DNA from: Psychrobacter sp. I-STPA6b | GTDB taxonomy: Bacteria; Pseudomonadota; Gammaproteobacteria; Pseudomonadales; Moraxellaceae | Length of the DNA: 64,000 nt | Direction of reading: 5' to 3' | NCBI RefSeq assembly: GCF_020662265.1 | Contig: NZ_VEWM01000010.1 | Span: forward strand, 372,001 to 436,000 | In this document: in pieces, positions 44,869 to 48,652 of the stretch | Layout: each line of letters opens with the position of its first letter | Position numbering within the stretch: position 1 is the stretch's first letter | The notes under the pieces: model-generated | Told to the model about the DNA's origin: nothing | The model's input: only the letters and a program-made list of their open reading frames with translations | Databases searched by the model: none | Position numbers and translations under genes: made by a program

Positions 44869-46917
<2,049 letters not shown>

Positions 46918-46920
46918 TAT

Positions 46921-47841
46921 ATGAGTACTTATAATTTAGAAAAGTTAGACAAAGAAACTCAGGAACAGATTATAAAACTACAAAAAGTTACTCGGAACAA
47001 AGACGGAAAAGAACAGTATGCTCAAGCTCAATTAGATATCGGGAGGGTTTTTTTTAATAAGAGCGATTTTCAGCAAGCCATTGATGTATGGCAAAATATT
47101 CTACCTGAAGATAGTGATGAAATTCATGCAAAGGTACAGTTTAATATTGGATTAGCTTTTAAAGAACTGGAAAGATCTCAGGATGCTGTTGAAACATGGC
47201 AAAATATTCTACCTGAAGATAGTTCAGAAGCTTATACAAGGGCACAGTTTAGTATTGCTCAATATTACTTAGGAAAAGAACAATATAAAGAGGCAATAAA
47301 GCATTACACTGAGTCTAAGTCGTTTTATCGTTATGAATCGGAGTGTTTTATTAAGATATGTAATTTACTTATTACAGATAATAGCAGAGAAGTAGGAAAG
47401 TTATATCAAAAGCTATTTAATCTAGTATTAGATATTATATATATATTAAAAGTTGACTTTAATTATCGAGGTAGTCAATCTTCTGATAGTCAGCCAGCAG
47501 AACGTAAATTAGCTCATTATACCAGCCCTGCAACTGCTGATATATTACTTAACCAAAAAGGCAAGGAGAAAGCCAGTCCATTCCGCCTAAATACTATTAA
47601 TAATGTTAATGATCCGAGTGAAGGGCAGTTGTTATTAGATTATTTAAAGCATGATAAACAAAATAGGTATATCAATCCTGATTTTGATGCTGATTTTCAT
47701 GCTTTTGTAAGCTGTTTTACCTTTAATCATGACAGCTTAAATCAGTTTCGTCTTTATGGAAAAAAAGATAACCTTGAGGCATCAGGTGTCAGCTTAGTAT
47801 TTAATAAAAATTTTTTAATAATCAAGGATTTAATGGGCTGA
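46921..47841 (+). CDS. TPR-DUF2971 protein, N-terminal part (gene split by a frameshift)
   Basis: Residues about 25-145 form three TPR-like helical repeats (VFFNKSDFQQAIDVWQNILPEDS and two similar). From about 195 begins a DUF2971-type domain (LAHYTSPATADILL, NNVNDPSEGQLLLD, FVSCFTFNHDSLNQFRLYG). The frame then stops at 47839-47841, whereas the family continues; the rest lies in the -1 frame. The junction is T TTT TTA at 47811-47817. Start directly after ligA with GGGGGAG as ribosome site. Clearly more AT- and Lys-rich than ligA, so probably acquired. DUF2971 function is unknown; such genes often sit in variable or defence-related loci. Confidence 0.75.
   Translation: MSTYNLEKLDKETQEQIIKLQKVTRNKDGKEQYAQAQLDIGRVFFNKSDFQQAIDVWQNILPEDSDEIHAKVQFNIGLAFKELERSQDAVETWQNILPEDSSEAYTRAQFSIAQYYLGKEQYKEAIKHYTESKSFYRYESECFIKICNLLITDNSREVGKLYQKLFNLVLDIIYILKVDFNYRGSQSSDSQPAERKLAHYTSPATADILLNQKGKEKASPFRLNTINNVNDPSEGQLLLDYLKHDKQNRYINPDFDADFHAFVSCFTFNHDSLNQFRLYGKKDNLEASGVSLVFNKNFLIIKDLMG
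47811..47817 (+). other. T TTT TTA heptamer at the frame junction
   Basis: In the upstream frame the codons read AAT TTT TTA. A -1 slip on TTTTTTA would continue as AAT AAT CAA GGA into the downstream frame, with the upstream-frame stop 22 bases later. A T-run of seven instead of six would give the same fused product. This is either a slippage/phase-variable tract, a programmed frameshift site or a plain inactivating deletion. Confidence 0.6.
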
Positions 47842-48551
47842 CTAATTTAGCTATTTATGACCAGACCAACTCTATTGCCGATAGGGAAATTGAGTTGCAA
47901 GAAAAGAGTGAAAAAGATTTAGATATATCTAATGTGAGTATTGGTAAGCAACCTATTATGCGTTGTGTTTATATTGACCCAGCATGCATCTATGAAGATG
48001 CTAGCAATGATTACGTCCATCTAGCCCAGCGTAATCGAATTACTTTTTATCGTGAGTCTAGCAATGATAGTAAGCAGGCTGAACAAAATTGGATAGATTA
48101 TCAGAAGTTTATAAATGATAAGACAAATGATTTTAAAAGAGAATTTAATAAGTTAAAAGCTACTTATAAAGACTTAGAAAAAGCAGAGAAAAGCTATAAA
48201 AAACTTGTACAAGACAAGAAAAAGTTAGATAAAAATTATTGTGACTTATTAAAAGAGTATGATACTTTGCTTAATGAAATTTTATTACCTTTAAAGTACT
48301 TGATTAAGCATGCCGCATTTCAAGAAGAGCAGGAATGTCGGATGGTTTATATCACCTCGTTAAAAGAGGATAAAGTTAAGTTGGATTTTGGAAGATTTCT
48401 ATATGTAGAATACAATGAGTCTGTAAAGGATAATTTAGATAAAGTCTATATTGCACCTGCTGCTACTCAATATCAACCATATCTGGCTAAGTTACTAAGT
48501 GATACCGAAGTTAAAATTGAGCTTTCAAAAAATCCTTATAGACTAAAATGA
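47817..48551 (+). pseudogene. TPR-DUF2971 gene, C-terminal part in the -1 frame
   Basis: Continuation of the preceding protein: after the junction the frame reads NNQGFNGLTNLAIYDQ and runs 244 codons to 48551 without interruption. It carries RCVYIDPACIYED, a Lys/Glu-rich coiled-coil insertion (about 47895-48260 region end, KDLEKAEKSYKKLVQDKKK), then HAAFQEEQECRMVYITS and a KVYIAPAATQYQPYLAKLL ending typical of DUF2971 proteins. It has no convincing start codon or ribosome site of its own. Labelled pseudogene because a frameshift is needed, but the intact second half suggests that the break is recent or bypassed. Confidence 0.7.
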
Positions 48552-48652
48552 GTTTTTTTAATATAGCCCTGTAAGACATATTAGCAAATACCTAATACGC
48601 CCATTTTCTATCATTTGGTGGGTTTGCTTGGTCAGCTCAAAATAATCAAAAC

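Follow-up and report, generated by a model that had tools for sequence, protein, structure and literature searches.

A frame-broken TPR–DUF2971-like gene behind ligA in Psychrobacter sp. I-STPA6b, probably the result of a recent mutation

Introduction

A gene whose two halves lie in different reading frames, joined exactly at a slippery heptamer, raises the question of whether it is mutated, wrongly sequenced or decoded in an unusual way. The gene considered here lies in the window, i.e. the entire 64,000-nucleotide stretch of Psychrobacter sp. I-STPA6b that was analysed (contig NZ_VEWM01000010.1, positions 372,001 to 436,000), and encodes tetratricopeptide (TPR) repeats followed by a DUF2971-like domain. 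The first-pass annotation had offered two readings: a T lost from a seven-T run, through phase variation or a recent inactivation, or slipping ribosomes. Judged from sequence comparison, the best single reading is that this accessory gene has probably undergone a recent, real and ordinary frameshift mutation rather than being subject to a programmed slip.

Gene structure and genomic context

The frame break is present in the sequence as given and, interrupting a conserved gene, is confirmed beyond chance. The features involved are listed in Table 1.

Table 1. Features of the frame-broken gene and its surroundings (window positions).
Feature	Position	Strand	Comment
NAD-dependent DNA ligase, presumably ligA	44875..46917	+	680-aa ORF, conserved upstream neighbour
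Frame-0 ORF	46921..47841	+	306 aa; TPR repeats and N-terminal part of DUF2971-like domain
In-frame T8 run of this gene	47048..47055	+	inside the open frame-0 ORF
Both frames open	47808..47838	+	between TAA 47805-47807 (-1 frame) and TGA 47839-47841 (frame 0)
-1-frame continuation	47811..48551	+	C-terminal part of DUF2971-like domain; 246 codons and stop
Six-T run where the family frame changes	47811..47816	+	with A47817 forms T_TTT_TTA (47811-47817), in phase with frame 0

The coordinates and the AAT TTT TTA layout of the break given in the first-pass annotation hold on recheck: from the start ATG at 46921, the frame-0 codons at the break are AAT (47809-47811), TTT and TTA (47815-47817), and the frame-0 TGA indeed follows 22 bases past the heptamer. 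Since the -1 frame opens only after its TAA codon, the frame switch is confined to approximately 47808-47838. The join is exact in terms of homology, as the stretch V-S-L-V-F-x-x-x-F-F is read in a single frame across the break position in relatives, and the last eight residues of the frame-0 ORF fall outside the frame of the family. The second half is uninterrupted, as annotated earlier, with 246 sense codons (47811-48548, stop codon 48549-48551) in place of the 244 reported. It had also been described as having no credible start, which mostly agrees with our data: candidate starts GTG 47934 and ATG 47958 have no clear Shine-Dalgarno sequence, TTG 47895 does have AGGG eight bases upstream, and each of the three would leave out a part of the conserved domain.

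The frame-0 ORF begins three bases past the stop codon of the upstream gene, which we take, from its sequence, to be ligA. A ligA homolog is directly upstream in 15 out of 16 Psychrobacter loci, the sixteenth (L042) beginning inside the TPR-DUF2971-like gene, and overall the gene is found directly behind ligA in about one third of the Psychrobacter species compared. Relatives outside Psychrobacter include loci from Cardiobacterium, Neisseria, Haemophilus, Moraxella, Aggregatibacter, and Rothia; the flanks fetched for these, in part cut short by contig ends, contained no ligA match. The G+C content of the gene (46921-48551) is 31.3%, compared to 40.3% for the window.

The first half scores 35 bits with TPR_1 of Pfam (cut-off 27.8), which assigns it to the TPR proteins. 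With the DUF2971 model (PF11185) the second half of the window copy scores 15.4 bits, the gathering score being 22, and the same model matches domains of 19 out of 21 relatives at E up to 0.1 (best E 6e-06); hence, "DUF2971-like" is the safe wording suggested by these profile scores. The number of TPR matches differs among intact genus copies, as does the gene length (see below), and in the window copy roughly seven residues following RCVYIDP (approximately 47982-48002) form a local insertion that the relatives aligned alongside lack.

Searches for the domain function used, among others, A1 and A2, both built from 21 out of 28 loci, excluding L020 (a near duplicate of L022), the frame-broken L027, L031, L039, and the truncated L040, L042, L044. 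Profile search of solved structures with A1 yielded 121 sequences, and the 60 listed lie within profile positions 25-332, on the TPR side. The AlphaFold model of an intact relative has a mean pLDDT of 82.8, and its Foldseek and VIA-align matches are to TPR, so that the full-length structure search barely probed the DUF2971-like domain. Folded alone, this domain gave a poor model (61.2), and Foldseek found no match for it at E 0.001 or better. Of the four proteins submitted to PADLOC, none obtained a usable match (best E 0.042), NCBIfam gave nothing close to a cut-off, and the second half had no match in the plasmid and phage collections. In the order-wide search with A2, which covered 293 genomes, strong matches were confined to three same-genus genomes, one of them the window's own, and four further genomes matched weakly (E 4e-4 to 9e-4). 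The idea that DUF2971 might resemble ADP-ribosyltransferases received no support in any search. In the full-text literature searched, DUF2971 is barely represented, and the term was not found together with tetratricopeptide.

The break site in relatives

Alignment of relatives, proposed in the first-pass annotation as a check, demonstrates that the Psychrobacter copies constitute a one-frame gene and that the break is not shared by intact relatives. Forty out of 41 other alignment rows (some genomes are represented twice) cross the site in a single frame, and TTT TTA occurs at the site in none of the 41. The site codes for a conserved Phe-Phe pair (Tyr-Phe in L034) by mixed TTT and TTC codons, without a long T tract. 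The sole exception is Psychrobacter sp. JCM 18901 (locus L027, genome G088), whose break falls in this T run, too, and has the opposite sign.

Frame-broken copies of the family were also observed in Rothia aeria (L031, 5790-6620) and Haemophilus parainfluenzae (L039, 5720-6400), elsewhere in the gene.

Distribution and state of the gene in Psychrobacter

Any part of the gene was found in 36 out of 105 genus genomes (35 by each half, 34 in common), and neither half in the remaining 69. Among these 36 genomes, 28 have an intact, open gene of 477-826 codons, five have a disrupted one, one is a low-quality assembly (G088), and in two the gene runs out at a contig edge (G026, G097). Besides the window copy (G000) with its frame break, the disrupted genes are those of G074, with an IS-like insert; G023, where the gene is on two contigs and a transposase gene adjoins the C-terminal piece; G003, with about 103 extra bases with IS-like ends compared to G102; and G029, where a 35-aa remnant is retained past an HNH_5 gene. 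From sequence features, we take the G074 insert and the G003 ends to be IS630-like, and the G023 transposase gene, ISAs1-like. A one-base frame break accounts for none of these four clear disruptions.

Judged by flanking DNA, the nearest relative is G108 (93% identity), and it has other genes in the slot: ligA is followed by an Imm42 gene, three unassigned ORFs and then, on the far side, a gene that we presume to be rhodanese-like. Slot content between these two genes differs among relatives (46918-48650 in the window; L127, 3265-7277; L158, 3335-4399); in G029, the HNH_5 gene is immediately behind ligA, together with the TPR-DUF2971-like remnant.

Thus, the gene is dispensable, being repeatedly absent or disrupted in relatives; its low G+C content and the different slot content in G108 fit a dispensable accessory gene.

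Sequence quality

A single extra or missing base may also be produced by sequencing. Stop-to-stop ORFs, spurious ones included, were taken from about 800 kb of G002 and from 220 kb of one G108 contig and compared with 456 kb of the contig that carries the window. One out of 353 ORF hits, covering 210,513 distinct bp, met a frame change, and it was the TPR-DUF2971-like gene itself; the same aligned sample spans 65 A/T7 and nine A/T8 runs. With the direction of comparison reversed, a frame change in the relative affected a single ORF for G002 (28% and 42% identity) and another for G108 (77% and 47%). As a control, in G088, 39 out of 106 test ORF hits over 71 kb were frame-broken, or 44 out of 137 over 79 kb if window-contig ORFs are added, with matches overlapping and some breaks therefore counted more than once. 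Since one in 353 hits is broken, while the test does detect breaks in G088, an error-ridden window assembly is excluded.

G088 has been sequenced on Ion Torrent PGM, according to its genome report (PMC3974947), and since more than a third of its test hits are frame-broken, its break at the T run is probably technical. A recurrent mutational hot spot, suggested by the coincidence of the two breaks, was dropped on the strength of this error-rich control.

An isolated error at the T run, made in sequencing or assembly while the gene is intact in the strain, is a different matter, as a 210-kb sample leaves room for a rare one. The undecayed second half (see below) agrees with such an error, as does the break of an Ion Torrent genome in the same run, and there is a precedent: for Halomonas elongata Helo_3291A, also a DUF2971 gene, the resequencing paper lists a "repair of known frameshift" (PMC5552945). 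That paper assigns 37 out of 48 frameshift errors of the 454 genome to polynucleotide runs and describes T-run errors as runs read too long, the type of error at Helo_3291A not being stated in the part concerned (PMC5552945). Given the otherwise unbroken window contig, so different from the Ion Torrent control, and the frequency of genuine disruptions (four of the 35 other genus genomes with any part of the gene), we consider an isolated error unlikely.

Sequence constraint after the break

If the gene had been broken for long, its second half should have decayed. Columns invariant among 23 of the 28 intact genus copies (G017, G092, G015, G109, G124, extending beyond the fetched stretch, were left out) are all retained by the window copy: of the columns of the domain, zero out of 42 are changed in its first part and zero out of 37 in its second, excluding columns where the two fragments overlap (zero out of 39 with a few of them). 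For comparison, when each intact copy is set against the remaining 22, the mean is 0.35 changes in the first part and 0.48 in the second, and 15 out of 23 copies likewise have none in the second part. In columns conserved at 95%, the window copy departs in one out of 50 in the first half and zero out of 48 in the second (other copies average 0.78 and 1.26); at 90%, in two out of 55 and three out of 57 (1.17 and 3.22). These data exclude long decay; the invariant-column test is weak against a very young break.

An undecayed second half leaves three readings: a recent break, a second half that continues to be made, or a break absent from the strain. Its conservation, equal to that in intact copies, would suit a sequencing error or a gene that is still translated as well, and counts against a recent mutation. 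The homologs are uninterrupted, as expected for a frameshift pseudogene (28 out of 36 genomes intact, 40 out of 41 rows read through), and relaxed constraint after the break is not seen in the invariant columns. We read this as the break being too recent, and hence speak of a recently frame-broken allele rather than of an established pseudogene.

Phase variation and slippage

Of the two forms of T-run length change proposed initially, recent inactivation gains from the one-frame relatives, the repeated absence and disruption of the gene, and the undecayed rest of it, while phase variation fares poorly. Reversible expansion and contraction of the run, switching the C-terminal half on and off, would explain why the T run is exactly at the break and why G088 is broken in the same run with the opposite sign. 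However, the latter break is probably technical, six T are short and do not make a long simple-sequence tract, the T8 run of the same gene stays in frame, and relatives keep no long tract at their mixed TTT/TTC pairs. We therefore regard phase variation as very unlikely, with the note that the genome collections compared hold one genome per species; a full-text search for tetratricopeptide phase variation in Psychrobacter found none.

A short and a full-length protein would both arise if ribosomes made a programmed -1 slip on U_UUU_UUA, or if transcription slipped in the U run. The in-phase heptamer, the brief overlap of the two frames and the undecayed second half would fit this. The heptamer itself adds no evidence, as a one-base change in such a Phe-Phe T run leaves T TTT TTA automatically; moreover, it occurs in phase 43 times in 115,233 codons of the same contig (456 kb; stop-to-stop ORFs of at least 200 codons, spurious ones included) and, somewhere in the gene, in seven out of 32 intact relatives without an accompanying break. 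The search for a downstream stem, suggested in the first-pass annotation, revealed none above shuffles (z -0.51 and 0.11 in two folds, nested pairs only), no Shine-Dalgarno-like motif was seen by eye in the 20 bases upstream, and neither the frame break nor the slip site is conserved in intact relatives. U_UUU_UUA is a known site type, but it is reported to shift far less readily in E. coli than A_AAA_AAG, and runs of nine A or T are given in the same review as the setting of transcriptional slippage (Atkins et al., PMC5009743). For E. coli and Buchnera, transcriptional insertions are reported to increase with A/T run length (PMC5574713), so that some slipped transcripts may be formed at a low level. 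Taken together, slippage as the explanation of the break is highly improbable, and the earlier suggestion that ribosomes slip here found no support.

There is an equally slender chance that in this lineage the T run now works as a slip site, one mRNA giving a short TPR protein with a part of the domain and a minority of full-length protein; in that case the undecayed second half would be under selection.

Discussion

Recent, real mutation is preferred as the single best explanation because the gene is repeatedly disrupted in the genus and the contig is otherwise clean. Counted against a one-base mutation is the different type of the other four clear disruptions. The change likely arose by slipped-strand replication and is likely present in the living strain, beyond the assembly. 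A one-base length change in the short T run, at the conserved Phe-Phe codons, would put the second half out of frame, so that translation from the normal start would give a 306-aa product comprising the TPR array, the first DUF2971-like part, and eight foreign residues. The C-terminal part, including the invariant E-Q-E-C-R stretch, would be lost, and as a consequence the protein is probably non-functional, i.e., the window allele has probably lost its function.

A single frame-broken allele carries little weight beyond annotation, where a gene caller would give two short ORFs compared to one in relatives. Of broader use is the patchy, repeatedly disrupted nature of this Psychrobacter gene, in a slot behind ligA whose content varies even in the nearest relative found, as a lead on what DUF2971 proteins do.

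Three known cases may be set beside the window copy. In E. coli dnaX, -1 frameshifting uses an in-phase X_XXY_YYZ heptamer, as at the window site, and the dnaX heptamer is A_AAA_AAG as opposed to U_UUU_UUA here (PMC5009743); in contrast to dnaX, the site considered here yielded neither a stimulatory stem nor an upstream element and is not conserved. Helo_3291A, comparable with the window gene by the DUF2971 label only, was likewise recorded as frame-broken in the first genome sequence, and its break vanished, according to the resequencing report, when the 454-based genome was sequenced again (PMC5552945). The third case is the intact TPR-DUF2971-like gene of P. aquaticus CMS 56 (L018), likewise located behind ligA, with 49% identity to residues 22-299 of the first half of the window copy and 52% to residues 9-244 of the second: there, the gene is one open frame of 638 codons, whereas the window copy switches frame in the T run.
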